This document shows positions 14,821 through 55,352 of a stretch of 64,000 nt of DNA, in pieces. The notes beneath the pieces are model-generated. The model did not search any database, was not told where the DNA came from, and saw only the letters and a list, made by a program, of their open reading frames with translations. This DNA comes from Bordetella trematum (GTDB lineage Bacteria > Pseudomonadota > Gammaproteobacteria > Burkholderiales > Burkholderiaceae_B). Both the position numbers and the translations under genes were made by a program. Within the stretch, counting starts at the first letter, position 1; each line of letters starts with the position of its first letter. The stretch is from NCBI RefSeq assembly GCF_900078335.1, contig NZ_FKBR01000034.1, forward strand, positions 1-64,000. The letters are read 5' to 3'.

Positions 14821-16368
14821 TCAGGCGCCGCTCCAGGCCTGGTCGTTGATGCGTTCGCTGGACGGGGCGCGCCCTTGCGTGCGTCGGGTATGCTCCAGCG
14901 CCGGCGTGATGACCTGCACCAGCCGTTCGAAGGCCGGAGCGATTTCCTCGTCGGGCACACAGGCATAACCCAGCAGCAACCCCGGCCGGGCCCAGGCCTC
15001 GTTGGCGTAATAGCGCGACAGCGGCCGGGCCGTCAGCCCCAGGGTACGGGCGGCGATGGAAATGCCGAGGTCATCCACGCCTTCGGGCAGATGCAGCACC
15101 AGATGCAGGCCGGCCTCATGGGTCGAGACCGGCCAGTCGGCGCCGAAATGACGCGCCACCGCCGCGCGCAGCAGCGCCTGGCGGGTGGCGTAGCACTGCT
15201 TCATGCGGCGGATGTGGCTGGCGTAGTGGCCGCCCTCGATGAAGTCGGCCAGCACCGCCTGGTCCATCAGGCGCCCTTCGCGGTACAGCTCGGACAGACC
15301 GGTCGCGAAATGCGCGGCCAGGCGGCGCGGCAGCACCATGTAGCCCATGCGAAAACCTGGGAACAGCGTCTTGGAGAAGGTGCCGAGGTACAGCACGCGA
15401 TCGTGGGGATCCAGGCCCTGCAGCGAGCCGATGGGCCGGCCGTCAAAACGGTACTCGCTGTCGTAGTCGTCTTCAATGATCCAGGCGCCACGCTTGTGGG
15501 CGTACTCGAGCAGCATGCGGCGGCGCGCCAGGCTCATGATCATGCCCAACGGATACTGGTGCGATGGGGTGAGGAAGATGAAGCGCGGCGGCTGTTGCAG
15601 CTGTTCGGCCTGCGGCGCCATGCCTTCTTCGTCGACCGGCACCGGCACCGGCGTGATGCCACAGGCCACGAGCGTGGCGCGCGCGCCCCAGTAACCCGGG
15701 TCTTCCATCCAGGCGGTGTTGCCGTGATCGCCCAGCAAACGCGCAAGCAGGCTGATCGACTGATGGATACCGGTGGTGATGACGACCTGATCGGCCTCGC
15801 AGCGGACCGAGCGCGCCAGACGCAGGTGTTCGGCCACGGCCTGGCGCAGCGGCAGATAGCCGGCGCCATAGGAATAGGTCAGAAGTTCCGGTGTCTGCTG
15901 ACGCCAGCGACGGCTGAGCAGGCGATTCCAGATGGCGCGGGGAAAGAGCGATACGTCAGGCACGCCGGAGACGAAGGCACCGAGCTGGCGATCCGAGGCC
16001 GAGGCCTCCTGCACCAGCTTGCTGCCTCGCCGCGACAAGAGAAACGGCGTGGCCGGCGGCTGCGTGTCAGGCTCGTCGCTCCAGGCCTCCTGGGGCTGGG
16101 GCACGGTATCGGAGACAAAGGTGCCGCTGCCGAAGGCGGCGGTCAGATAGCCTTCGGCGGTGAGCTGGTCATAGGCGTGCAGGATGGTGTTGCGCGACAG
16201 GGCCGTGTCGGCAGCCAGCACCCGGGTGGCGGGCATCTTGGCCCCGGCGGGTAGCTCGCCCGCCAGGATCAGGGCGCGCAAGGTGTCACAGACCTGGCGC
16301 GACAGCGCCACCGTGGCGCGCCGGTCCAGACGTTGCAGCACTCGCTCCGACAGAATCAGCTCTTTCAA
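14821..16368 (-). CDS. MocR-type regulator (GntR HTH + aminotransferase domain)
   Basis: A 515-residue MocR/GabR-family regulator: an N-terminal GntR winged helix (about 10-85, with ALSRQVCDTLRALILAGELP and LSRNTILHAYDQLTAEGYL) and a type I aminotransferase-like domain. The PLP region is intact (EDDYDSEYRFDG; TFSKTLFPGFRMGYMVLP with the Schiff-base Lys). Such proteins use PLP to sense an amine or amino acid such as GABA. The start is taken as TTG 16368 (AGGTG 5 bases before it), which leaves the conserved operator motif outside the gene; the frame stays open far upstream but only as antisense to the binding-protein gene. It is divergent from the transport/catabolic operon and is its likely regulator. 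Confidence 0.88.
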   Translation of the reverse strand: MKELILSERVLQRLDRRATVALSRQVCDTLRALILAGELPAGAKMPATRVLAADTALSRNTILHAYDQLTAEGYLTAAFGSGTFVSDTVPQPQEAWSDEPDTQPPATPFLLSRRGSKLVQEASASDRQLGAFVSGVPDVSLFPRAIWNRLLSRRWRQQTPELLTYSYGAGYLPLRQAVAEHLRLARSVRCEADQVVITTGIHQSISLLARLLGDHGNTAWMEDPGYWGARATLVACGITPVPVPVDEEGMAPQAEQLQQPPRFIFLTPSHQYPLGMIMSLARRRMLLEYAHKRGAWIIEDDYDSEYRFDGRPIGSLQGLDPHDRVLYLGTFSKTLFPGFRMGYMVLPRRLAAHFATGLSELYREGRLMDQAVLADFIEGGHYASHIRRMKQCYATRQALLRAAVARHFGADWPVSTHEAGLHLVLHLPEGVDDLGISIAARTLGLTARPLSRYYANEAWARPGLLLGYACVPDEEIAPAFERLVQVITPALEHTRRTQGRAPSSERINDQAWSGA

Positions 16369-16728
16369 AGTGGCACCTGAAAATGGAATCGTTCTGGATC
16401 TATTGAGAGTACCAAATATCCGATAGGCTTCTCCATTATGAAAAACGGCAATGGCACGCACCATCGCCACACCATTTGCAAGGGGAGACACTTGCCAATG
16501 CATCATCACCGCATATGCGGCGGCCCGCCGGCCTGCCCATTTCCTGACCGCATTCCTGGCGCGCTTCGCTGCGCCACCTTCCCCACCCTGGATCAGCCCC
16601 CGCTCTAGCGGCCGTCCCGCTTCCTCCCTGCGATGTCCCGTGCCACGCCGGTCCCCGCCTGCGTGCGGGCGGCGCTCGCCCATGCCCAGCGCACCGCGCT
16701 CACCGCCCGTTTTCTTCTGGAGCCTGCT
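16369..16728. promoter_or_regulatory. MocR operator/promoter region, copy A (no gene)
   Basis: This 360-base divergent region holds two elements that recur before the second binding-protein gene. CAAAGTGGCACCT is at 16366-16378, and TGGATCTATTGAGAG followed by TACCAAATATCCGATA is at about 16395-16424. The spacing from GTGGCAC to GGATCTAT is 26 bases, exactly as in copy B, although the bases between differ. A shared GCAAGGGGA-type stretch follows further downstream (about 16477). These are the best candidates for MocR binding sites and the operon promoter. The rest of the region shows nothing I can name. Confidence 0.7.
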
Positions 16729-18303
16729 TTGAAACTGTCCCGTCTGCTGAAACTGTCTTCCTGCGCCCTGGCCCTGAGCCTTGCCCTGCCCGCCACCACC
16801 GCCTGGGCCCAGACACGCGGCGGCACCCTCAGCATGATCGTGCAACCGGAACCGCCCATGCTGATCCCGGCGCTCAATCAGCAAGGCCCCACGCAGTACA
16901 TCACCGGCAAGATCTATGAAGGGCTGCTGACCTACAGCTTCGACCTCAAGCCGCAGCCCGGCCTGGCCAAATCCTGGGAAGTCAGCCCCGACGGGCTGAC
17001 CTATACCTTCCATCTGCAGGAAGGCGTGAAGTGGCACGACGGCAAGCCGTTCACGGCCGATGACGTGGTGTTCACCATGACGGAGATGCTGCCCAAGACC
17101 CATGCGCTGGCCCGGGTCATCTTCAAGCAATATTTGGATCGTGCCGAGAAAATCGACGAGCACACCGTCAGCCTGCATCTGAAGTCCCCCTTCCCGGCCT
17201 TCATGCTGGTGTTCGGCCCCGGCTTCTCGCCGATGATGCCCAGGCATCTGTATGCCGGCACCGACTACGCCACCAACCCGGCCAACCAGAAGCCGGTCGG
17301 CACCGGTCCCTTCAAGTTCAAGGAATGGAAGCGGGGCGAATACGTCAAGCTGGAGCGCAACCCCGACTACTGGATGGAGGGCAAGCCCTATCTGGATGAG
17401 CTGATCTTCAACGTGATCCCGGATGCAGCCTCGCGCGCGGTAGCCTATGAGCGTGGCAGCGTGGACGTGCTGCGCGGCGGCGACATCGACGACGTGGACG
17501 TGCGCCGGATACGGGCACTGCCCAATACCGAGTACACCACCAAGGGCTGGGAGATCTTCTCGCCCCAGGCCTACCTGCTCTTCAACATGCGCAAGCCGCC
17601 GTTCGACAACGTCAAGGTGCGCCGGGCCGTCATGGCCGCGATCAATCGCAAGATGGTGGTGGACAACATCTTCTTCGGCCAGGGCAAGATCTCCACCGGC
17701 CCGCTGGTATACACCGAGATGTTCTATGACAAGAACACGCCCCCCATGCCTTTCGACATGAAACAGGCGCGCGCCCTGATCAAGGAATCCGGCGTCAATC
17801 CGCAGGACTACACCATCCGCCAACTCAGCCTGCCCTATGGATCGAGCTGGGACCGTCTAGGGGAATACACCAAGCAATCGCTGGAGCAACTGGGCTTCAA
17901 GGTCGAACTCGAGGCGACCGATGCCGGCGGCTGGGCCGCGCGCACTGGCGACTGGGACTTCGACCTGACCATGGTCTACAGCTACCAGTACGGCGACCCG
18001 GCGCTGGGGGTGGAGCGTCTTTACACCGAGTCCAACATCGTCAAGGGCTCGCCCTTTGCGAACGTGCAGGGCTATCGCAATCCGGAGGCCGACAAGCTCT
18101 GGGCGCAGGCGGCGGCCGAAAGCGATCCGGCCAAACGCCAGGCGCTCTACTCGCAGATCCAGACCATGCTCACCGAAGACGTGGCCAACGGCTTCCTGAT
18201 GGACATGGAATTCCCGACCCTGTATCGCAGCAAGGTCAAGAACCTGGTGCAGACCGCCATCGGCGTGAACGAGACCTTTGCCGACGTTTATCTCGAACCG
18301 TGA
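16729..18303 (+). CDS. ABC transporter substrate-binding protein, DppA/OppA family (copy 1)
   Basis: A 524-residue periplasmic binding protein of family 5 (peptide/nickel). A signal peptide (LKLSRLLKLSSCALALSLAL, then a TTAWAQ cleavage region) leads to the mature start TRGGTLSMIVQPEPP. The family signature region LAKSWEVSPDGLTYTFHLQE and VKWHDGKPFTADDVVFT is at about 75-115. The start is a TTG at 16729 with GGAG 6-7 bases upstream; the second copy starts with GTG at the same point. Most residues are identical to the copy at 18701; differences cluster around 145-165 and in the last third. Substrates of the family range from peptides to opines and polyamine conjugates. Confidence 0.9.
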   Translation: MKLSRLLKLSSCALALSLALPATTAWAQTRGGTLSMIVQPEPPMLIPALNQQGPTQYITGKIYEGLLTYSFDLKPQPGLAKSWEVSPDGLTYTFHLQEGVKWHDGKPFTADDVVFTMTEMLPKTHALARVIFKQYLDRAEKIDEHTVSLHLKSPFPAFMLVFGPGFSPMMPRHLYAGTDYATNPANQKPVGTGPFKFKEWKRGEYVKLERNPDYWMEGKPYLDELIFNVIPDAASRAVAYERGSVDVLRGGDIDDVDVRRIRALPNTEYTTKGWEIFSPQAYLLFNMRKPPFDNVKVRRAVMAAINRKMVVDNIFFGQGKISTGPLVYTEMFYDKNTPPMPFDMKQARALIKESGVNPQDYTIRQLSLPYGSSWDRLGEYTKQSLEQLGFKVELEATDAGGWAARTGDWDFDLTMVYSYQYGDPALGVERLYTESNIVKGSPFANVQGYRNPEADKLWAQAAAESDPAKRQALYSQIQTMLTEDVANGFLMDMEFPTLYRSKVKNLVQTAIGVNETFADVYLEP

Positions 18304-18700
18304 TGACGCGATCCAAAGTGGCACCTTCGAGCCTGCCGCTTTTGGATCTATGGAGAGTGCCAAATATTCGATACGCTGCGATGGCATCAGAACGAAGTCC
18401 AGAAAATGCAAAGGGGAAAAACTTGCAAACGGACAAACGACACGCGACGCATGGGGTCCTTCGCCCCACGACACCCGCAGCCGCAGCGCCCCGCGCGCCC
18501 GGCCATCGGCCCAGATTGAGCGCCCCCGGCTGAACCCCGGGGGCCGCCTCAAATGCCGCAGCGGTGTGCGGCAGGCAGTTTTCTTCACCGCAATGCAGCA
18601 TCCGGTGCGCTGATCGCGCAGCCGGCAACGCACAGGCAGCCGCCGCCCGCCAACGGGGCGGCGCGCGGCCATCCATCTCAAGACCGCCGGGAGGTCCGCA
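18304..18700. promoter_or_regulatory. MocR operator/promoter region, copy B (no gene)
   Basis: This 397-base gap between the two binding-protein genes repeats the elements of copy A: CAAAGTGGCACCT at 18314-18326 and TTGGATCTATGGAGAG followed by TGCCAAATATTCGATA from 18342. The spacing is conserved but the intervening bases diverge, and a GCAAAGGGGAAAAACTTGC stretch parallels copy A. It therefore looks like a duplicated, functional promoter/operator rather than dead spacer, giving copy 2 and the downstream genes their own regulated start. No open gene of note was seen in the remaining bases. Confidence 0.7.
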
Positions 18701-20278
18701 GTGAAACTGAAACACGCCCTCAAACTCTCCGCCTGCGCCGTGGCGCTGGCCGCCATGTTGCCTTCGGGCGCCGCCTGGGCCCAGACGCGGGGCGGCACGC
18801 TCAGCATGATCGTGCAGCCCGAGCCGCCCATCCTGATCCCCGCCCTTAACCAGCAAGGGCCGACCCAATTCATCACTGGCAAAATCTACGAGAGCCTGCT
18901 GACCTACAGCTTCGACCTGAAGCCGCAGCCCGGCCTGGCGAAGTCCTGGGAAGCGAGCCCCGACGGGCTGTCGTATACCTTCCATCTGCAAGAGGGCGTC
19001 AAGTGGCATGACGGCAAGCCTTTCACCGCCGATGACGTCGTATTCTCGATGATGGACATGCTGCCCAAGGTGCACGGCCGCGCCCGCGTGATCCTGGGCA
19101 AGCACCTGGACCGGGTCGAGAAAATCGACGATCACACCGTGGTGATGCATCTGAAGGCGCCCTTTCCCGCCTTCATGCTGATGTTCGAGCCGGGTTTTGC
19201 GCCCATGATGCCCAAGCACATCTACGCCGGCACCGACTACGCCACCAACCCGGCCAACCAGAAGCCGGTCGGCACCGGCCCCTTCAAGTTCAAGGAATGG
19301 AAGCGGGGCGAGTTCGTCAAGCTGGAGCGCAACCCCGACTACTGGAAGCCGGGCAAGCCCTATCTCGATGAGCTGATCTTCAACGTGATCCCGGATGCGG
19401 CCTCGCGCGCGGTGGCCTATGAGCGTGGCAGCGTGGACGTGCTGCGCGGCGGCGACATCGACGACGTGGACGTGCGCCGGGTGCGCGCCCTGCCCAATAC
19501 CGAGTACACCACCAAGGGCTGGGAGATGTTCTCGCCCCAGGCATACCTGATCTTCAACATGCGCAAGCCACCCTTTGACAACGTCAAGGTGCGCCAGGCG
19601 ATCATGGCCGCCATGAACCGCAAGATGGTGGTGGACAACATCTTCTTTGGCCAGGGCAAGATTTCCACCGGGCCGCTGGTGTACACCGAGATGTTCTATG
19701 ACAAGAACACGCCTCCCATGCCCTTCGACATGAAGCAGGCGCGTGCCTTGATCAAGGAATCCGGCATCAATCCGCAGGACTACACCATCCGCCAGCTGGG
19801 TTTCCCGTACGGGTCGACCTGGGATCGTCTGGGCGAATACACCAAGCAATCGCTGGAGCAGCTGGGCTTCAAGGTCAACACCGAATCCACCGATGCCGGC
19901 GGCTGGGCCGCGCGCACCGGCGACTGGGACTTCGACCTGACCACCACCTACAGCTACCAGTATGGCGACCCGGCGCTCGGCGTGGAACGCCTGTACATCG
20001 CCGACAACATCGTCAAGGGCTCGCCCTTTGCGAACGTGCAGGGCTATCGCAATCCGGAGGCCGACAAGCTGTGGTTCAAGGCCGCAGCCGAGGTCGACCC
20101 GGCCAAGCGCCAGGAACTGTATACGCAGATCCAGGTGATGCTGACCCGCGACGTCGCCAACGGCTTCCTGGTGGACATGGAGTTCCCCACGCTGTATCGC
20201 AGCAAGGTCAAGAACCTCGTGCAGACCGCCATCGGCCTGAACGAGACCTTTGACGACGTCTACATCGAGCAGAAATAA
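18701..20278 (+). CDS. ABC transporter substrate-binding protein, DppA/OppA family (copy 2)
   Basis: A 525-residue paralogue of the preceding gene. The GTG start at 18701 has GGGAGG 6 bases upstream. The signal peptide ends SGAAWAQ, and the mature protein starts TRGGTLSMIVQPEPPILIPA. Long blocks are identical to copy 1 (for example DAASRAVAYERGSVDVLRGG). Replacements such as FKQYLDRAEKIDEHTV to GKHLDRVEKIDDHTV and LSLPYGSSW to LGFPYGSTW hint at altered ligand contacts. It directly precedes the permease genes, so it is probably the main binding protein of this importer, with copy 1 broadening the substrate range. Confidence 0.9.
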   Translation: MKLKHALKLSACAVALAAMLPSGAAWAQTRGGTLSMIVQPEPPILIPALNQQGPTQFITGKIYESLLTYSFDLKPQPGLAKSWEASPDGLSYTFHLQEGVKWHDGKPFTADDVVFSMMDMLPKVHGRARVILGKHLDRVEKIDDHTVVMHLKAPFPAFMLMFEPGFAPMMPKHIYAGTDYATNPANQKPVGTGPFKFKEWKRGEFVKLERNPDYWKPGKPYLDELIFNVIPDAASRAVAYERGSVDVLRGGDIDDVDVRRVRALPNTEYTTKGWEMFSPQAYLIFNMRKPPFDNVKVRQAIMAAMNRKMVVDNIFFGQGKISTGPLVYTEMFYDKNTPPMPFDMKQARALIKESGINPQDYTIRQLGFPYGSTWDRLGEYTKQSLEQLGFKVNTESTDAGGWAARTGDWDFDLTTTYSYQYGDPALGVERLYIADNIVKGSPFANVQGYRNPEADKLWFKAAAEVDPAKRQELYTQIQVMLTRDVANGFLVDMEFPTLYRSKVKNLVQTAIGLNETFDDVYIEQK

Positions 20279-20364: not shown

Positions 20365-21372
20365 ATGAAATTCCTGTCTTTCTTTGCCTCCCGGCTGGCC
20401 AAAGCGCTGGTGGTCGTGCTTGGGGTGGTGATCATCAACTTTTTCCTTATCCGCATGGCGCCGGGCGACCCGGCCGCCGTGCTGGCAGGCCAGGCGGGTG
20501 CGGGCGACCCCGCCTATGTCGAACAGTTGCGCGTGCAATTCGGCCTGGACCAGCCTGTCCTGACCCAGTTGGCCATCTACCTCAAAGGGGTGGCGCAACT
20601 CGACCTGGGCTTTTCCTATCGCAATCACGTGCCGGTGCTGGACCTCATCCTGGAACGCTTGCCGGCGACCTTTCTGCTGATGATCTGCGCCTTTCTGTTT
20701 TCCATCATCCTGGGCGTGGCGCTCGGTGTCGTGGCGGCCAAGGCCCGCTACGCCAACAAGCGGCGCTGGATCGACAGCACGGTAATGAGCGGCGCCCTGC
20801 TGCTGTACGCCACGCCGCTGTTCTGGCTGTCGCTGATGGGCATCCTGCTGTTCTCGGTCACGCTGGGCTGGCTGCCTGCATTCGGGATGGAGACTGTGGG
20901 ATCCAAGCTCACCGGCATGGCGCGGGTCTGGGACATCGCCCAGCATCTGGTACTGCCGACGGTGACCCTGGGGTGCTTCTTCATGGCCGTCTATGTGCGC
21001 CTGACGCGCGCCTCGATGCTTGAAGTCATCGGCATGGATTTCGTCAAGACCGCCCGCGCCAAGGGCGTGCCGCCCGCCCGGGTGATCCGCGCTCATGTGC
21101 TGCGCAACGCCTTGCTGCCGGTCATCACCTTTGCGGGGATCCAACTCGGGCAGATGGCCGGTGGTGCGGTGCTCACCGAGACCGTGTTTGCCTGGCCGGG
21201 CATCGGACGCCTGATGTTCGATGCCTTGCTGCAGCGCGATTACCAGCTGCTGCTGGGCATTTTCCTGGTGACGTCCATCATGGTCGTGGCCTTCAACCTG
21301 ATCACCGACATGGTCTATCGCTTCATCGACCCGCGCATCGCCGCCGGGGGCAAGCAAGGAGCCGCAGCATGA
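20365..21372 (+). CDS. ABC transporter permease, DppB type
   Basis: A 335-residue inner-membrane permease of the dipeptide/nickel class. It opens with the family segment KALVVVLGVVIINFFLIRMA and PGDPAAVLAG, has about six membrane helices and carries the EAA loop (DFVKTARAKGVPPARVIRAHVLRNALLP) that docks with the ATPase. The ATG at 20365 (CTGGAG 8 bases upstream) is preferred to an in-frame start 24 bases earlier. Its stop overlaps the dppC ATG (ATGA), and it is followed by dppC and a fused dppDF, giving a complete importer. Confidence 0.92.
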   Translation: MKFLSFFASRLAKALVVVLGVVIINFFLIRMAPGDPAAVLAGQAGAGDPAYVEQLRVQFGLDQPVLTQLAIYLKGVAQLDLGFSYRNHVPVLDLILERLPATFLLMICAFLFSIILGVALGVVAAKARYANKRRWIDSTVMSGALLLYATPLFWLSLMGILLFSVTLGWLPAFGMETVGSKLTGMARVWDIAQHLVLPTVTLGCFFMAVYVRLTRASMLEVIGMDFVKTARAKGVPPARVIRAHVLRNALLPVITFAGIQLGQMAGGAVLTETVFAWPGIGRLMFDALLQRDYQLLLGIFLVTSIMVVAFNLITDMVYRFIDPRIAAGGKQGAAA

Positions 21373-22208
21373 ATGGCTTTGTCAAACGCTATATGCGCAA
21401 CTACGGCGCGGTGGCCGGCCTGATCATCGTCACCACCGTGGTGCTGATCGCCCTGGCCGCGCCGCTGCTGTACGAAGAATCGCCCTGGATGATGGTGGCC
21501 GCGCCGCTAATTCCGCCGTTTACCGATGCGGCCTACCCCTTCGGCACCGACATGCTCGGCCGTGACATTACCGCCGGGCTGGTGTGGGGCGCGCGCGTCT
21601 CGCTGATGGTGGGATTGCTCTCGACCGGAGTGGCGCTGCTGTTCGGCATCGCCATCGGCGCCATCGCCGGCTACTGCGGCGGGCGCATCGACGACGCGCT
21701 GATGCGCTTTACCGAGTTCTTCCAGACGATTCCGCAGCTGGCTATGGCGGTCGTGCTGGTGGCCGTGCTGGGCCCGTCGATGTACTCGATCATGGGCGCC
21801 ATCGCCGTGGTGTCCTGGCCGCCGGCCGCACGCCTGGTGCGCTCTGAGTTCATGACGCTCAAGCAGCGCGAGTTCGTGCAGGCGGCCATCGTGATCGGCC
21901 AGACGCCTGGGCGCATCGTCAGCAGCCAGATCCTGCCCAATGCCATGTCGCCCATCATCGTGTCGGCCTCTTTCATGGTGGCCACCGCGATCCTGACCGA
22001 GTCCTCGCTTTCCTTTCTGGGCCTGGGCGACCGCAACATGATGAGCTGGGGTTTCATGATCGGCGCGGCCCGGACCATGATCCGGGAAGCGTGGTGGATG
22101 AGCGTATGGCCGGGAGTGGCCATTCTGCTGACGGTGCTGGCCATCAACCTGATCGGCGAAGGGCTCAACGACGCCCTCAACCCGCAACTGCGCAAGCGCG
22201 GCGAATAG
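21369..22208 (+). CDS. ABC transporter permease, DppC type
   Basis: A 279-residue permease partner of DppB. It has the DppC hallmark FGTDMLGRDITAGLVWGARVSL (about 57-78), roughly six membrane helices, and the EAA loop MTLKQREFVQAAIVIGQTPG. The C-terminal SSLSFLGLGDRNMMSWGFM stretch is typical. It overlaps the dppB stop by 4 bases and is separated from the ATPase gene by 10 bases, consistent with translational coupling and one transcript. Confidence 0.92.
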   Translation: MNGFVKRYMRNYGAVAGLIIVTTVVLIALAAPLLYEESPWMMVAAPLIPPFTDAAYPFGTDMLGRDITAGLVWGARVSLMVGLLSTGVALLFGIAIGAIAGYCGGRIDDALMRFTEFFQTIPQLAMAVVLVAVLGPSMYSIMGAIAVVSWPPAARLVRSEFMTLKQREFVQAAIVIGQTPGRIVSSQILPNAMSPIIVSASFMVATAILTESSLSFLGLGDRNMMSWGFMIGAARTMIREAWWMSVWPGVAILLTVLAINLIGEGLNDALNPQLRKRGE

Positions 22209-22218
22209 GAGGCCAGCC

Positions 22219-23865
22219 ATGCAACAACCCGCTGAACGCGACGTCCCGCTGCTGTCCATCCGCAACCTGAGCATCGCCCTGCCTGCCGGCGGCGACCGCC
22301 CCTTCGCCGTACAGGACGTCTCGTATGACATCCGCGCCGGGGAGATCCTGTGCATCGTGGGCGAGTCGGGATCGGGCAAGTCCATGAGCGCCAATGCGAT
22401 CATGGGCCTGCTGCCTGACTACCTCAAGCCCCAGCAGGGCGAGATCCTTTTCCAGGGGCGCGATCTGCTGGTGCAGCCCGAGGAGACTCTGCTGGGCATG
22501 CGCGGCAAAGACATGGCGATGATCTTCCAGGAGCCGCTGTCGGCCCTGAATCCGCTGATGACCGTGGGCGAGCAGATCTCCGAAGTCATGCGCGTGCACA
22601 ATGCCTACCCGGGCGCGGCGCGCCAGCAGCGCGTGCTGGAGCTGCTGGCCTTCGTGGGCCTGCCGGATCCCGCCACGCTCTACCATGTCTACCCCTTCCG
22701 TCTGTCGGGCGGCCAGCGTCAGCGCGTGATGATCGCCATGGCCCTGGCGCTGGAGCCGGCCCTGCTGATCGCCGACGAGCCGACCACGGCGCTGGATGTG
22801 ACCACCCAGGCGCAGATCCTGGCGCTGATCGCACGCATCCAGAAGGAAAAAGGCATGGGGGTGATGTTCGTCACCCACGATTTCGGTGTGGTGGCCGAGA
22901 TTGCGCACCGGGTCGCGGTGATGGAAAAAGGCATTCTGGTCGAACAAGGCCCGGCCGAACAGGTGCTGAACCGCCCTCAGCACCCTTATACCCGGCGCCT
23001 GATCGCGGCGGTGCCGCACCGCCGCGCCGAAGACCGGCCCAGCCTGGAGACCGAGGCGCCGGTGCTGCGCGTGCGCAATCTGCAGAAGACCTATGTCACC
23101 GGCCATGGCGGTCTGTTCGGGCGCAAACGTGTGGTCAACGCCGTCGATGGCGTGAGCTTCGAAGTGCGGCGCGGCGAGACACTGGGCATCGTGGGCGAAT
23201 CCGGATCGGGCAAGTCCACCATCGGGAAGTGCCTTCTCAAGCTGATCGGCATCGACGGCGGCGAGTTGATCTTCAATGGTCGCGATATCGCCGGGCTGCC
23301 GGAATCCCAGTTCCGGCCACTGCGCAAGGATATCCAGATGATCTTCCAGGATCCCTTCGCCTCGTTGAATCCGCGCCAGACCGTCGGGCGCATCATCAGC
23401 GACGGCCCGGTCGCCAACGGCGCCACGCGCGAGCAGGCCGAACGGCGCACCCGCGAGCTGCTCACGCTGGTCGGGCTGGACCCTTCGGCCTTCGATCGTT
23501 ATCCGAACCAGTTCTCGGGCGGGCAGCGCCAGCGCATCGGCATCGCCCGCGCCCTGGCGCTGGAGCCCAAGGTGCTGGTTGCCGACGAGTCGGTCTCGGC
23601 GCTGGACGTCTCGGTGCAGGCCCAGGTGCTGCAACTATTGCACGAATTGCAGCAACGCCTGCGCATCGCCATGATCTTCATCACCCACGATCTGCGCGTC
23701 GCGGCCCAGATCTGCAATTCCGTGCTGGTCATGCACCGGGGCAAGGTGGTCGAGCATGGCAGCCCGGGGCAGATCTTCGACCGACCGCAAAACCCGTATA
23801 CCCAGCAACTGATCGCCGCGGTGCCTGGCCAGCACTGGGATCCGACCCAGGCCGAAACCACATGA
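22219..23865 (+). CDS. Fused ABC transporter ATPase (DppD-DppF)
   Basis: A 548-residue protein with two complete oligopeptide-type ATPase domains. Domain 1 has Walker A GESGSGKS at 48-55, signature LSGGQ at 162-166 and Walker B LLIADEP near 183-188. Domain 2 has Walker [10 protein letters not shown] at 326-334, FSGGQ at 432-436 and VLVADES near 452-458. Each domain ends with the oligopeptide-transporter tail ([24 protein letters not shown]). It should supply both nucleotide-binding sites of the importer. The Walker B of domain 2 reads DES where DEP is usual; the catalytic Glu is kept. Confidence 0.93.
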
Positions 23866-25507: not shown

Positions 25508-26572
25508 ATGAAGGCATTTTTTGCGGAAGAACAATTACTGCACCTGCCGCAGCAGTTCATGCGCCTGGGCCGCATCAGCGCGCCGACCGATGTGCCGGCG
25601 CGCGCCGAAACGCTGCGCGCCCAGCTGCAGTCGCGCGGCATCGATGTGCAGGCCCCGCCCGATTTCGGCCGCGAACCGCTGGCAGGCGTGCATAGCGAGG
25701 CCTATCTGGACTACCTGGAGCACGCCTATACCCGTTGGCAGGCGCTGCGCGACGAAGGTCTGGATCCGGGCGAGGAGGTGCTGCCGAATCTGTCGCCCTA
25801 CTACAGCGGCCGCCATGAGCTGCCCGCGCGCCCGCCCTGCCCGTCGCCCTCCATCGTGGCCCAGACCGGCTATTACCTGAGCGACCTGTCCTGCCCGGTC
25901 GGCCCCCATACCTGGCGCGCGGCCCTGCGCTCGACGCACAGCGCAGTGGCGGCAGCCGACTGGGTGCGCCAGCACCAGAGCATGGCCTATGCTTTGTGCC
26001 GGCCTTCCGGGCACCATGCGCACCGTGATCGCGCAGGCGGCTTCTGCTACCTGAACAGCAGCGCCGCGGCCGCCCAGCGGCTGACGCAGACCTGGTCGCG
26101 GGTCGCGGTACTCGACGTAGATGCCCACCATGGCGACGGCACGCAGAATATTTTCTATCAGCGCGCCGACGTCATGACGCTGTCGCTGCACGCCGACCCC
26201 AGCACCTACTACCCCTTCTATACCGGCTACGCCCATGAGCGCGGCTACGGCAGCGGCCATGGCTACAACCTGAACTTTCCGCTGCCGCACGGGGCCGCCA
26301 ACGACGTCTTTCTGCAGGCCCTGGACAGCGCCCTGGTGGCGCTGCGCGACTACCGCCCCCAGGCACTGGTGCTGGCCCTGGGCTTTGACACCTATAAGGA
26401 CGACCCCATCAGCGTGCTGAAGCTGGACCTCGAAGCCTATCGCCATATCGGCGAGCGCATCCAGGCGCTGGCCCTGCCCACAGTGGTGGTGCAGGAAGGC
26501 GGCTACATGGTCGAGAGCATCGGCCCGGCCCTGGACGCTTTCCTGCAGGGTATGTCGGCGGTGCGCGCCTAA
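25508..26572 (+). CDS. Acetylpolyamine amidohydrolase-like (histone deacetylase family)
   Basis: A 354-residue zinc deacetylase of the HDAC superfamily, matching the bacterial acetylpolyamine amidohydrolase (APAH) pattern in length and N-terminal shape. Active-site signatures: RPSGHHAHRDRAGGFCYLN (catalytic His pair), LDVDAHHGDGTQNIFY (zinc Asp and His), LGFDTYKDDP (second zinc Asp) and QEGGY with the catalytic Tyr. Such enzymes remove acetyl groups from N-acetylputrescine, N-acetylcadaverine or similar amides in the cytoplasm. Its place between a GabT-like aminotransferase and a PuuC-like dehydrogenase supports a polyamine-type pathway. A homologue is at 45343. Confidence 0.88.
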   Translation: MKAFFAEEQLLHLPQQFMRLGRISAPTDVPARAETLRAQLQSRGIDVQAPPDFGREPLAGVHSEAYLDYLEHAYTRWQALRDEGLDPGEEVLPNLSPYYSGRHELPARPPCPSPSIVAQTGYYLSDLSCPVGPHTWRAALRSTHSAVAAADWVRQHQSMAYALCRPSGHHAHRDRAGGFCYLNSSAAAAQRLTQTWSRVAVLDVDAHHGDGTQNIFYQRADVMTLSLHADPSTYYPFYTGYAHERGYGSGHGYNLNFPLPHGAANDVFLQALDSALVALRDYRPQALVLALGFDTYKDDPISVLKLDLEAYRHIGERIQALALPTVVVQEGGYMVESIGPALDAFLQGMSAVRA

Positions 26573-26591
26573 CCTCTTTCCGGAGAACACG

Positions 26592-27854
26592 ATGAAACAG
26601 ATCAACGACATTTCGATCAACGGCGAGCGCCTGTGGCAGTCGCTGATGGAGCTGGCCCGCATCGGGGCGACCGACAAGGGTGGCAACTGCCGCCTGGCCC
26701 TCACCGAACTGGACGGCCAGGGCCGCGACCTGGTGGTGGGCTGGATGCGCGATGCGGGTCTGGAGATCACGGTGGACCAGGTGGGCAACATCTTCGGGCG
26801 TCGTCCGGGACGGGATCCTTCCAAGCTGCCGGTGGCCACCGGCAGCCACATCGACACCCAGCCTACCGGCGGCAAGTTCGACGGTTGCTTCGGCGTAATG
26901 GCCGGCCTGGAGGTCATGCGCACCTTGCAGGAGCAAGGCATCGAGACCGAGGCGCCGCTGGAGCTGGTGATCTGGACCAATGAAGAAGGCACCCGCTTCG
27001 TGCCGGTGATGATGGGTTCGGGCGTGTTCTGCAACGTCTTCCCCCTGGAGACGGCGCTGTCGGCCACGGACATCGACGGCAAGTCGGTGCGCGACGAGCT
27101 GGTCAATATCGGCTACGCCGGGAGCGAACCGGTCGGCCAGCGCAAACTGGGCAAGTATTTCGAGGCCCATATCGAACAGGGCCCCATCCTGGAAGCGGAA
27201 GACAAGGTCATCGGCGTAGTAACCGGCTCGCTCGGGCTGCGCTGGTACGACCTGACCGTCACCGGCATGGAAGCCCACGCCGGCCCGACGCCCATGCCGC
27301 TGCGACGCGACGCCCTCTACGCGGCCACATTCATCATGCAGGAGGTCATCCGCATCGCGCGCGACTACGCCCCCCAGGGGCGTGGCACGGTGGGCGTGGC
27401 CAATGTCTTCCCGTCGTCGCGCAACGTGATCCCCGGCAAGGTGTCCTTCAGCGTGGACCTGCGCCACGAGAACGCCGACCTGCTGGCCGAAATGGATGCG
27501 CGCCTGCGTCGTGCCTGCGCCGCCCTGGCCTCGGGCGAGACGGCCGGCTACCCGGTCGAGGTGGACCTGCAGGACGTGCAGCACTTCCCGCCCACCCCCT
27601 TCGCCCCCGAGCTGATCGAGGCGGTGCGTGAACAGGCACGGGCCCGCGGCCTGCCGGAAATGGACATCGTCACCGGCGCCGGGCACGACGCGGTCTACGT
27701 GGCCACCGTCGCGCCCACGGCCATGATCTTCGTGCCCTGCAAGGACGGCATCAGCCACAATGAGATCGAGGACGCCAAGCCCGAGCACCTGACTGCCGGC
27801 GCCAATGTGCTGCTGGGCGCCATGCTGACCCATGCCGGGGTGATCCAGCCATGA
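26592..27854 (+). CDS. Zn-dependent M20 hydrolase (N-carbamoyl-L-amino-acid hydrolase / beta-ureidopropionase type)
   Basis: A 420-residue amidohydrolase of the AmaB/HyuC branch of the M20 family. Metal and substrate motifs are in order: ATGSHIDTQPTGGKFDG (about 80-96), WTNEEGTRF, AHIEQGPILE, EAHAGPTPM and the C-terminal GAGHDAVYVA with SHNEIED. These enzymes hydrolyse N-carbamoyl-amino acids, beta-ureidopropionate or allantoate, releasing ammonia and carbon dioxide or related products. It lies 20 bases behind the APAH-like gene and overlaps the next gene, so the operon has two different amide-cleaving enzymes. The substrate is not determined; a carbamoylated omega-amino acid is plausible. 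Confidence 0.88.
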   Translation: MKQINDISINGERLWQSLMELARIGATDKGGNCRLALTELDGQGRDLVVGWMRDAGLEITVDQVGNIFGRRPGRDPSKLPVATGSHIDTQPTGGKFDGCFGVMAGLEVMRTLQEQGIETEAPLELVIWTNEEGTRFVPVMMGSGVFCNVFPLETALSATDIDGKSVRDELVNIGYAGSEPVGQRKLGKYFEAHIEQGPILEAEDKVIGVVTGSLGLRWYDLTVTGMEAHAGPTPMPLRRDALYAATFIMQEVIRIARDYAPQGRGTVGVANVFPSSRNVIPGKVSFSVDLRHENADLLAEMDARLRRACAALASGETAGYPVEVDLQDVQHFPPTPFAPELIEAVREQARARGLPEMDIVTGAGHDAVYVATVAPTAMIFVPCKDGISHNEIEDAKPEHLTAGANVLLGAMLTHAGVIQP

Positions 27855-35263: not shown

Positions 35264-36565
35264 ATGAAAATCCTGGTAATCGGCTCGGGCGGCCGCGAAC
35301 ACGCTCTCGCATGGCGGCTGGCGCGTTCGCCGCGCGTTCACAAGGTTTATGTGGCGCCCGGCAACGGCGGCACCCAGACCGGCCAGCAACTCGAGAACGT
35401 GGCGCTCAGTCAGCCCGAAGAACTGGCCGATTTCGCCCAGCGCGAAGGCGTCGCCCTCACGGTGGTGGGCCCCGAGGCCCCGCTGGCCGCCGGCGTGGTC
35501 GATGTGTTCCGCGCTCGCGGGCTGAAGATCTTCGGGCCGACCAGGGCCGCCGCCCAGCTGGAGAGCTCCAAGGATTACGCCAAGGCGTTCATGATCCGCC
35601 ACAACATCCCGACGGCGCGCTATCAGACCTTCACTGATCCGGCCCAGGCCCATGCCTATGTCGACCAGGAAGGCGCGCCCATCGTGATCAAGGCCGACGG
35701 TCTGGCCGCCGGCAAGGGCGTGGTGGTCGCCACCACCCTGCAGGAAGCCCACGACGCCATCGACGCCATGCTGGGCGACGGCTCGCTGGGCGCGGCCGGG
35801 GCGCGCGTGGTCATCGAAGAATGCCTGATCGGCGAAGAAGCCAGCTTCATCGTGATGGTCGACGGCCGCAACGTGCTGGCCCTGGCTACCAGCCAGGACC
35901 ACAAACGCCTGCGCGACGGCGACGAAGGCCCCAACACCGGCGGCATGGGCGCCTACTCGCCCGCCCCCATCGTGACGCCCGAGCTGCACCACCGCATCAT
36001 GCGCGAAATCATTCTGCCCACGGTGCAGGGCATGGCGCAGGATGGCATCCCCTATACCGGCTTCCTGTACGCCGGCCTCATGATTGCCCCGGGCGATGAC
36101 CCCGACCGCCCCATCAAGACGCTGGAATTCAACTGCCGCATGGGCGACCCCGAAACCCAGCCGATCATGATGCGCGTCAAGAGCGACCTGCTCGATGCGC
36201 TGGAGCACGCCGTCGAGGGCACGCTGGACCAGGCCGACATCACCTGGGACCGGCGCAGCGCCCTGGGCGTGGTGCTGGCCGCGGCCAACTACCCGGCCAC
36301 GCCGCGCACCGGCGATGTGATCAGCGGCCTGCCGGCCGACAACGATGACTGCATGGTGTTCCATGCCGCCACCGTCGCCGAAGACGGCCAGATCAAGACC
36401 AGCGGCGGGCGCGTGCTGTGCGTCACGGCGCTGGGCGACTCGGTACGCATGGCGCGCGAGCGCGCCTACCAGACCGTCAACGCCGTGCATTTCGACGGCC
36501 GCCAGTACCGCAGCGACATCGGCTGGCGCGCACTCAAGCCTTCGCAGCAGAAAACCAAGCCCTGA
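35264..36565 (+). CDS. purD: Phosphoribosylamine-glycine ligase
   Basis: A 433-residue ATP-grasp enzyme of purine synthesis, joining glycine to phosphoribosylamine to make GAR. Visible signatures: [20 protein letters not shown] at the N-terminus, [12 protein letters not shown], the ATP-grasp [40 protein letters not shown] and [12 protein letters not shown]. Length matches the family. It lies 108 bases after yebC and 8 bases before hemF. Confidence 0.97.
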
Positions 36566-53841: not shown

Positions 53842-53893
53842 ATCGTGGCATCATGAAAAGCGCCATATCATGACTATTTACTGGTGCCACGAT
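53842..53893. promoter_or_regulatory. Inverted repeat between GNAT and MocR genes, probable MocR operator
   Basis: Nine-base arms ATCGTGGCA (53842-53850) and TGCCACGAT (53885-53893) are perfect inverted copies, with two TCATGA palindromes (53851-53856 and 53868-53873) inside. The GTGGCA half-site is shared with the GTGGCAC element upstream of the binding-protein genes at 16370 and 18318. The right arm ends 1 base before the mocR GTG start at 53895, so binding there would also block its own translation start or transcription. Confidence 0.7.
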
Positions 53894-53894
53894 A

Positions 53895-55352
53895 GTGACC
53901 GATGCCCTGACCCAGCAACTGCTGCTCGATGCCCCCCTGCACGCGCAGGCCGGTGCGTTGCAGCGTCAACTGCAACAACGTCTCAAGGACGCCATTCTGC
54001 ACGGCCAGCTGCCGGCAGGAGCGCGCCTGCCGGCGACACGTCAGTTGGCCGCCGCGCTGGCGATCTCCCGCAATACGGTCAGCTTTGCCTACGAACACCT
54101 GGCCGCCGAAGGCTATCTGGTGGCTGACCGCCAGGGCACCCGCGTAGCCGCCCTGCACCTGCGACCGGCCCCTGCTGCCCCCGCGCAGGCGACCGCCACG
54201 CCGCGCCTGGCGCAGCGCACGACGCGGCTGGCGGCGACCTCGCGCGCCAACGGCCCCTATCTGGCCCTGCGCGCCGGGCAACCCGCGCTGTCGCACTTCC
54301 CCATGGCCGCCTGGCGCAGGGCCTTGGAGCGCGCCCTGCGCACCGGCCCCGAGACGCTCGCCTATGGCGACCCGGCCGGCGAGATGGCGCTGCGCACCAG
54401 CCTGGCCCGCTACCTGGGCGTCGCCCGGGGGGTGCGCTGCACGCCGCAACAGATCTTCATCACCGAGGGTACCCAACAGGCGCTGGCGCTTTGCGTGCGA
54501 TTGCTGGCCGACCCGGGCGAGGCGGCCTGGGTCGAGGATCCCGGCTATCGGGGGGCCAAAACGGCTTTCCACGCGGCCGACCTCAGGGTCATTGCCAAGC
54601 CGGTCGATCATGAGGGCCTGGCCCTGACCGCCGCAGACTGGCAAGCGCCGCCACGCATGATCTACGTTACGCCCTCCCACCAGTACCCGGTCGGCGGGGT
54701 CATGCCCGCCGCGCGCCGGCTCGACTTGATCGCCCAGGCCCGTCGCCATCAATGCTGGATCATCGAAGACGATTACGACAGCGAATTCCGCCACCATGGC
54801 GAACCCATCGCCGCCATGCAAGGCATGACTCCCGACGCGCCTGTGCTGTATGTGGGTAGTTTCAGCAAGACGATGTTTCCAGCGCTCAGAGTGGGCTTCC
54901 TGGTGCTGCCCGCCTCCCTGGCCGAGGTGTGCCAGACGCCCGCCGCCGAACTGCTGCGCGGCGGCCAGCGGCATCAGCAACTGGCGCTGGCCGACTTCAT
55001 CGAGAACGGCGAGTTCAGCCGCCACCTGGGTCGCATGCGGCGGCTTTACCGGGAGCGCCAGCAGGCCCTGCGCCAGGCGCTTGCGCAACGCTTTGATGTG
55101 GAGCACGAAGTGCTGGGCGGTCAGAGCGGCCTGCACCTGACCGTCAGGTTGCCTGAGCGCTACGACGACCGCCGCATTGCGTCCTCGGCGCCAGCCTATG
55201 GCATGCAACCGCAAGCCCTGTCCACATTTTCCCTGGCGTCCCCGGACAATGGCCTGGTATTGGGCTATGGCAACACTGCCAGCGAGCGCTTCGAGACGCT
55301 CGCCGCGACGCTCGCGCGCCTGGCCAGACAGGCGCGCCAGGCCTCGCGATAG
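53895..55352 (+). CDS. MocR-type regulator (GntR HTH + aminotransferase domain)
   Basis: A 485-residue MocR-family regulator. The GntR HTH is at about 20-85 (LQRQLQQRLKDAILHGQLPA, LAISRNTVSFAYEHLAAEGYL), then a PLP-dependent aminotransferase-like domain with EDDYDSEFRHHG and the Schiff-base Lys in GSFSKTMFPALRVGFLVLP. It starts at GTG 53895. It is divergent from the GNAT gene, with a large inverted repeat between. MocR proteins often activate a divergent gene in response to an amine or vitamin B6 compound. Confidence 0.9.
   Translation: MTDALTQQLLLDAPLHAQAGALQRQLQQRLKDAILHGQLPAGARLPATRQLAAALAISRNTVSFAYEHLAAEGYLVADRQGTRVAALHLRPAPAAPAQATATPRLAQRTTRLAATSRANGPYLALRAGQPALSHFPMAAWRRALERALRTGPETLAYGDPAGEMALRTSLARYLGVARGVRCTPQQIFITEGTQQALALCVRLLADPGEAAWVEDPGYRGAKTAFHAADLRVIAKPVDHEGLALTAADWQAPPRMIYVTPSHQYPVGGVMPAARRLDLIAQARRHQCWIIEDDYDSEFRHHGEPIAAMQGMTPDAPVLYVGSFSKTMFPALRVGFLVLPASLAEVCQTPAAELLRGGQRHQQLALADFIENGEFSRHLGRMRRLYRERQQALRQALAQRFDVEHEVLGGQSGLHLTVRLPERYDDRRIASSAPAYGMQPQALSTFSLASPDNGLVLGYGNTASERFETLAATLARLARQARQASR

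Follow-up and report, generated by a model that had tools for sequence, protein, structure and literature searches.

Bordetella trematum contig NZ_FKBR01000034.1 carries, within its first 64,000 nucleotides (the whole stretch analysed here, referred to as the window), a MocR-type regulator gene, mocR, that diverges from an operon encoding an ABC transporter and its two solute-binding proteins (SBP1 and SBP2). Conserved sequence blocks precede each of the two binding-protein genes, and we consider it very likely that they constitute one three-box operator of this MocR/GabR-type regulator, present twice through tandem duplication, in this lineage, of a segment that starts at box 1 and ends with the binding-protein gene. 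That the blocks are bound by the divergent MocR had already been proposed in an initial annotation of this DNA; their box structure, their fixed geometry and their co-occurrence with mocR all support this proposal, and from these we infer the binding itself. The elements in question are the following.

14821..16368, minus strand: mocR, regulator with a GntR winged helix and a class I/II aminotransferase domain (Pfam PF00392, PF00155), GabR paralogue, predicted TTG start
16371..16377, plus strand: operator 1 box 1, TGGCACC, overlapping the mocR Shine-Dalgarno (SD) sequence and start, identical in 15/15 aligned rows
16395..16401, plus strand: operator 1 box 2, TGGATCT, direct repeat 24 bp from box 1
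16408..16414, minus strand: operator 1 box 3, AGTACCA, inverted (TGGTACT on the minus strand)
16424..16429, plus strand: -10-like hexamer TAGGCT of the predicted transporter promoter, TA...T in 21/21 aligned sites
16480..16608, plus strand: third block and leader open reading frame (ORF) of copy 1, AAGGGGA, TTG (16492) and 38 codons, apparently a diverged relic of an M20 deacylase gene start
16729..18303, plus strand: SBP1, peptide-type solute-binding protein (PF00496), the fast-evolving copy in the tree, TTG start at 16729 from homologue match
18319..18325, plus strand: operator 2 box 1, TGGCACC, 15 nt after the SBP1 stop codon, with no mocR beside it
18343..18349, plus strand: operator 2 box 2, TGGATCT
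18356..18362, minus strand (inverted): operator 2 box 3, AGTGCCA
18372..18377, plus strand: -10-like hexamer TACGCT of a predicted second promoter
18411..18533, plus strand: third block and leader ORF of copy 2, AAGGGGA, TTG (18423) and 36 codons
18701..20278, plus strand: SBP2, solute-binding protein (PF00496), the slow-evolving copy in the tree, adjoining the permease genes

Two copies of a probable three-box operator

The initial annotation had placed CAAAGTGGCACCT at 16366 and 18314 and a block running from GGATCTAT to CGATA at 16396 and 18344, and we find both at exactly these positions. No further copy of CAAAGTGGCACCT or GGATCTAT exists on either strand of the window, and CAAAGTGGCACCT occurs at exactly two places in the genome as a whole (4,444,703 bases in 50 contigs). 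Block 1 is identical between the copies (13/13 bases), the block from GGATCTAT to CGATA (16396-16425 and 18344-18373) matches at 27 of 30 bases as read from the printed alignment, and the 35-base stretch at 16395-16429 matches at 31 of 35. The reported divergence between the blocks is equally evident, with only 3 of 16 bases matching at 16379-16394 (16 of the 17 spacer bases), and the flanks agree at 5 of 20 bases before and 10 of 35 after the blocks. The spacing is indeed the same in both copies, but the gap measures 17 bases (30 from start to start) and not 26, and what had been described as two blocks in fact consists of three boxes and a -10-like hexamer. In copy 1, block 1 also overlaps the predicted SD sequence and TTG start of mocR, a point absent from the initial annotation, while copy 2 has no mocR. 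Aligned without gaps, the two 5' regions reach a best score of 30 (+1/-1) compared to a maximum of 18 in 300 dinucleotide shuffles, and their similarity is therefore above chance. Nevertheless, since the two binding-protein genes still share 85.6% of their bases, the within-genome footprint that had been called strong evidence is by itself only moderate evidence; the blocks are conserved as claimed, but it is the cross-genome comparison that carries the operator case.

The boxes are conserved across genomes and follow mocR

We searched the divergent regulator against 151 genomes of the family, 80 of which have a homologue at E<=1e-80, and fetched 30 of these loci (L005-L034). Looking upstream of the orthologous operons was the check that the initial annotation had suggested, and the blocks are there: among the 22 closest mocR homologues (L005-L026, 57-100% identity), 19 have the three boxes near the mocR start, a predicted start whose position is common to the orthologues. 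The exceptions are L025 with boxes 77 nt off, L020 with weak boxes 245 nt off, and L023, whose mocR reading frame contains two stop codons and which shows no boxes at all. With two more loci of the genus added (L057, L058), 20 of 21 near-start sites read TGG-box, 17 bases, TGG-box, 6 bases, inverted box (hereafter 17/6) and one is 16/6, and copy 2 is also 17/6. The first pattern for this geometry was written after the boxes had been seen, and its looseness amounts to 0.038 matches per 87 nt.

Conservation is concentrated in the boxes. For 15 rows, comprising 14 genomes and copy 2, pairwise identity averages 1.00 in box 1, 0.57 in the 17-base spacer, 0.88 in box 2, 0.90 in the 6-base spacer, 0.98 in box 3, 0.90 in the following nine bases, 0.98 in the -10 hexamer and 0.37 downstream. 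Of 21 aligned sites, 18 have AGTACCA as box 3, and the first T, the A and the last T of the hexamer TANNNT nine bases after it are invariant in all 21, both copies included. This alignment and the site model built from it leave out L022 (16/6), L020 and L025 (boxes far from the start) and L023 (no boxes). When used to scan the window's genome, the model from 21 sites scores the two copies at 61.5 and 57.1 bits, and the next site, which lies before a third MocR gene in the window, at 17 bits.

The presence of the site also coincides with that of the regulator. Among 15 Bordetella genomes, the core site (at most two mismatches) is found in 8, exactly those with a mocR orthologue (78-100% identity), and is absent from all 7 that have only paralogues (at most 53% identity), two of which are incomplete (73% and 77%). 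In two complete genomes without mocR, G068 and G151, the binding-protein gene is kept at 79% identity behind a divergent LysR gene (PF00126, PF03466), and the boxes are absent from these loci. Based on the co-occurrence of 8/8 versus 0/7 and the LysR-fronted loci without boxes, the site tracks mocR across these sequences and not the transporter gene. A second binding protein in G148 (77% identity) has no site within the 4.1 kb examined.

Identity of the regulator and geometry of its paralogues

The MocR protein of the window has the domain layout of the family, with PF00392 at residues 22-85 and PF00155 at 156-459, and its best solved relatives by sequence are 7pq9 and GabR (4n0b). Its FSK motif aligns with that of 7pq9, and the lysine of this motif may be the one that binds pyridoxal phosphate (PLP). 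In the window and its relatives, gene order places the divergent MocR beside dpp genes and gabT2, as in the Bordetella regulon predicted by Suvorova & Rodionov (2016; PMC5320631), and the arrangement of two direct boxes and one inverted box matches the definition of MocR sites in that work. The adjoining operon encodes the dpp transporter and gabT2 and no vitamin B6 synthesis genes; more distant targets were covered by the site search only.

The most serious alternative is that another regulator, e.g. a GabR paralogue encoded on contig 31, binds the site with cross-talk between paralogues, which we regard as unlikely. In its favor, the general three-box pattern has three matches in the genome, at 16371, at 18319 and at contig 31:35999 (reversed control, 0 matches), and the last of these (35999-36042; L143) is the operator of a MocR paralogue that faces a gabT gene; its boxes are similar and also span 44 bp in all. 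This gabT (NF005272, 752 bits; cut-off 725) is 67% identical to the window's gabT2, and the locus fits the sister regulon of Suvorova & Rodionov. However, the contig-31 operator has a different geometry (16/7), this geometry differs by clade, and the core site is missing from those genomes of the genus with paralogues only. A tree of 112 MocR homologues, a quick build in which long branches are flagged, places all 29 sites of the 17/6 type in one clade of 32 (Shimodaira-Hasegawa-like approximate likelihood ratio test, SH-aLRT, 99), whose remaining three members comprise one 16/6 site and two without an accepted site, while all 45 sites of the 16/7 type lie outside this clade. Only 17/6, 16/7 and 16/6 were accepted as spacings for this tree and others, such as 14/8 in L073, counted as none, so that the separation holds for 75 of the 112 regulators and the remaining 37 rows have no accepted geometry. 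A scan of homologues from named genomes, covering 78 loci (the 80 best of at least 588, less L128 and L139 whose regulator start is missing), gave 39 sites of 16/7, 7 of 17/6 and one of 14/8, compared to 6 matches in 1560 shuffles.

The shift between clades extends to the -10 motif, which follows box 3 at offset 9 in all 27 sites with 17/6 geometry and at offset 8 in 36 of 41 with 16/7 (identical sites counted once, and L023 dropped from the 28-row 17/6 set as a chance-like match). Boxes 1 and 3 thus mostly keep their 44-bp span, and box 2 and the -10 their 22-bp distance, while one pair is displaced by one base against the other. One could imagine two rigid modules sliding past each other, an outer pair of boxes 1 and 3, whose distance the reach of the MocR dimer would dictate, and an inner pair of box 2 and -10 dictated by RNA polymerase. 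The dimer would repress on the outer pair until an inducer moves one head to box 2 for activation, with the 1-bp offset insulating paralogous GabR regulators of one cell from each other. We offer this model as a doubtful one, because the few independent shifts represent few evolutionary events, 5 of the 41 sites with 16/7 geometry lack the -10 motif at offset 8, one 16/6 site has a 43-bp span, and the middle site of GabR in Bacillus subtilis is dispensable (PMC9452892).

A third MocR gene of the window (53949-55331) has its own three-box operator at 53847-53890 on the minus strand, with 17/6 geometry (TGGCACC, TGGCGCT, GATGCCA). In a loose search of its orthologues, 17/6 was found in 15 of 18, 17/5 in one and no site in two, and by reading the -10 lies at offset 10 in four, the window's own included.

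The boxes as more than a translation start or a recent copy

A different explanation would dispense with a MocR operator altogether: the conservation of block 1 would reflect nothing but translation initiation of mocR (ribosome-binding site and start codon), and that of block 2 nothing but a promoter. Indeed, 1-3 bases separate box 1 from the start codon of mocR in copy 1 and in 18 of 20 other near-start orthologous sites, its complement reads GGTGCC before a TTG or ATG start in most orthologues, and block 2 contains the -10. Yet copy 2 has kept block 1 in 13 of 13 bases although no mocR start codon there needs it, which is part of the case for an operator. In the distant relatives G022 and G125, box 1 is present about 13 bp farther from the mocR start and apart from an independent SD sequence and start, with the TGG and the 17-base gap kept, so that box 1 is more than an SD sequence. 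Together with the strong conservation of box 3, which lies outside the -10, and the absence of boxes from the two LysR-controlled relatives, these observations make the explanation very improbable.

It is hardly credible that recent common descent or gene conversion, with no selection on a binding site, explains the similarity of the copies, as the shared 85.6% of bases and the 94-96% stretches suggestive of conversion might indicate, since these stretches lie mid-gene while the first 120 bases of the genes are only 68% identical and the leader is hardly alignable, the boxes nevertheless agree at 13/13 and 31/35 bases, and they are conserved in other genera as well.

The duplication itself appears specific to this lineage, as this is the only one of the 15 Bordetella genomes with the core site twice. 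SBP1 and SBP2 are sisters in the tree (support 100/99) with branches of 0.15 and 0.034, respectively, and 29.6% of 226 four-fold sites differ; the start of SBP1 was taken as 16735, not 16729, in these comparisons (identity, four-fold sites, tree). Between 16735-18300 and 18701-20275, identity reaches 94-96% mid-gene and is 68-70% in two 5' stretches. The mid-gene identity suggests, on sequence grounds, gene conversion of the core of the gene. We rejected copy 1 as the ancestral copy because the leader of copy 2 resembles that of relatives by eye while the copy 1 leader has diverged, relatives match SBP2 better, and the SBP1 branch is longer.

A working model of the switch and its known relatives

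In our model, a PLP-bound MocR dimer would dock on the boxes and sense an amine, with gamma-aminobutyric acid (GABA) or a related omega-amino acid as candidates. At copy 1, MocR would repress its own gene; this is proposed because box 1 covers the translation start and boxes 2 and 3 lie just upstream, where the mocR promoter should be. It would also activate the transporter/gabT2 operon in an amine-dependent manner. If the TANNNT hexamer is the -10, the -35 position falls between boxes 2 and 3, which puts box 3 into the spacer of the transporter promoter; activation is proposed since this -10 is preceded by box 3 and lacks a good -35, with box 2 adjoining the -35 position and box 1 located upstream. 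The sequence TTGAGA, 15 bp from the -10 in the near clade, was considered as a -35 and discarded as it is not kept in other clades. Copy 2 would provide SBP2-dppBCDF-gabT2 with a second, internal promoter under the same control, and SBP1 and SBP2 may specialise.

The closest described counterpart is the regulon of Suvorova & Rodionov, who predicted gabT2 and dppABCD to be under the control of GabR paralogues in Bordetella, also mentioning argE, and who found the architecture of two direct boxes followed by an inverted one to be the commonest among MocR motifs (32% of regulons). Our locus resembles this regulon in genus and gene content (MocR, dpp ABC transporter, gabT-type aminotransferase), and the duplicated switch appears to be a well-supported example of it. 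The Results and Discussion text available to us mentions neither a duplicated binding-protein gene with its own operator, nor 17/6 versus 16/7 geometry, nor the relic of an M20 gene start described below, so that the tandem copy, the clade-specific 1-bp shift in geometry and the interpretation of the third block go beyond this text. We found no such shift in the literature examined (PMC5320631, PMC8739950, PMC9452892, PMC10107442), a small part of the field seen in part, and a literature query for AGTACCA with MocR had, among the matches listed, none related by title.

As far as the available text of PMC9452892 goes, GabR of B. subtilis uses three sites within 41 bp at overlapping divergent promoters and acts as autorepressor and activator. 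In a synthetic promoter built on PgabTD, the -35 is flanked by sites 2 and 3, the latter occupying the spacer between -35 and -10; loss of site 1 abolishes activation, loss of site 3 reduces it, and site 2 is dispensable. That system is similar to ours in the MocR-type regulator, the divergent promoters, the number of sites and the position of the third site in the spacer, but its outer sites are direct repeats with an inverted one between them, whereas in the Bordetella operator the first two boxes are direct, the third is inverted and all span 44 bp. For the rhizopine MocR, the box-carrying distal end of PmocB is essential for induction by rhizopine (PMC10107442, likewise seen in part); the moc-box AAAGYGGYTCT resembles AAAGTGGCACC, and its direct repeats of 11 bp set 13 bp apart give a 24-bp period as do boxes 1 and 2 here. 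It differs in that the available text mentions no inverted third box, mocR is reported as constitutive and the operon is another one, and our regulator scores below the cut-off of the rhizopine family. The activator role is inferred by analogy with rhizopine PmocB and B. subtilis GabR.

Several points weigh against this interpretation as a whole or in part. The regulator scores 296.1 bits against the GabR equivalog NF052285 (cut-off 600) and does pass the cut-off of the PdxR equivalog NF052282 (414.1 versus 320), and its best-scoring NCBIfam model, the rhizopine MocR equivalog NF052281, reaches 493 bits with a cut-off of 650. Because it thus falls below the GabR and rhizopine MocR cut-offs and above that of PdxR, its name rests on context. 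No box set was found by the pattern used in 31 of the 78 homologues from named genomes. Copy 2 lacks two bases that most of the genus shares (AGTGCCA, ATGGAG), and due to this loss may be a weaker or decaying operator. In contrast to the proposed autorepression, rhizopine mocR is reported to be constitutively expressed (PMC10107442). Finally, the choice between activation and repression of the operon draws on positions and analogy, and box 3 between -35 and -10 could be equally compatible with repression.

A third block as relic of an M20 gene start

Both copies contain a third block overlooked before, an SD sequence followed by TTG at 16480-16494 and 18411-18425, set at a different spacing. 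This sequence of AAGGGGA and then TTG is common to the window copies and relatives. Among 15 genomes in which the binding-protein gene comes first, 13 have the block together with a leader ORF 16-70 codons long, G120 uses the third block as the start of its binding-protein gene, and in G093 no third-block start was found. Thirteen of the 14 leaders (two of them in this genome) start with [ML]-Q-[PST]-D, the exception being copy 1, which has lost the shared codons. In G059, G024, G025 and G013, the gene of an M20 protein starts at about the place of the third block, with AAGGGGA as SD sequence only in G024, TTGGGGA in G059 and others in G025 and G013; the M20 protein of G024, the one tested, is an ArgE/DapE family deacylase by NF005306. 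The intact M20 gene of Bordetella G151 reads GCAAGGGGAAATCTTGCAGCCTGAT (MQPDTQRITDAVDALEPY) compared to GCAAAGGGGAAAAACTTGCAGCCGGAC in the leaders, and G068 has the same start as G151 in a shortened M20 gene. We conclude from these alignments that the third block is what remains of the translation start of an M20 (ArgE/DapE-type) gene since lost, and that it now opens a short leader ORF. As a fourth MocR box it was rejected, since its distance from box 3 varies (around 44-88 nt, approximate by about 2), its start codon is TTG in some cases and ATG in others, and genuine genes begin there in relatives.

In G068 and G151, the LysR gene occupies the place of mocR before an operon of the M20 and binding-protein genes, and the shortening of the G068 M20 gene is internal.

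A scan of 16300-18760 against Rfam at E<=1 gave 0 matches and hence no described riboswitch or attenuator family in this region; an attenuator in the long leader was looked for by eye only, without folding.

The remainder of the operon

Downstream of SBP2, the operon continues as follows, with dppB and dppC named from context and reading without a family search.

20365..23865, plus strand: ABC transporter dppB, dppC and dppDF, by synteny; dppDF has two PF00005 domains and PF08352
23882..25177, plus strand: gabT2, class III aminotransferase of the 4-aminobutyrate transaminase type (PF00202; TIGR00700, 592.3 bits, cut-off 506.65)

Beyond the operon, 25508-27854 encodes a hydrolase of the histone deacetylase family and an M20 carbamoylase-type amidase, which stay with the operon in several relatives. 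Judging from these neighbors, the substrate may be an acylated amine or peptide.

Implications

Our results turn a predicted regulon into a precisely mapped pair of predicted operators in one genome, one with and one without the start codon of the regulator. These two natural copies would allow the operator role to be told apart from that in translation initiation, the two coinciding in 19 of the 21 near-start orthologous sites, and the clade-specific geometry may offer a direct handle on how the two-headed MocR dimer reads three boxes.

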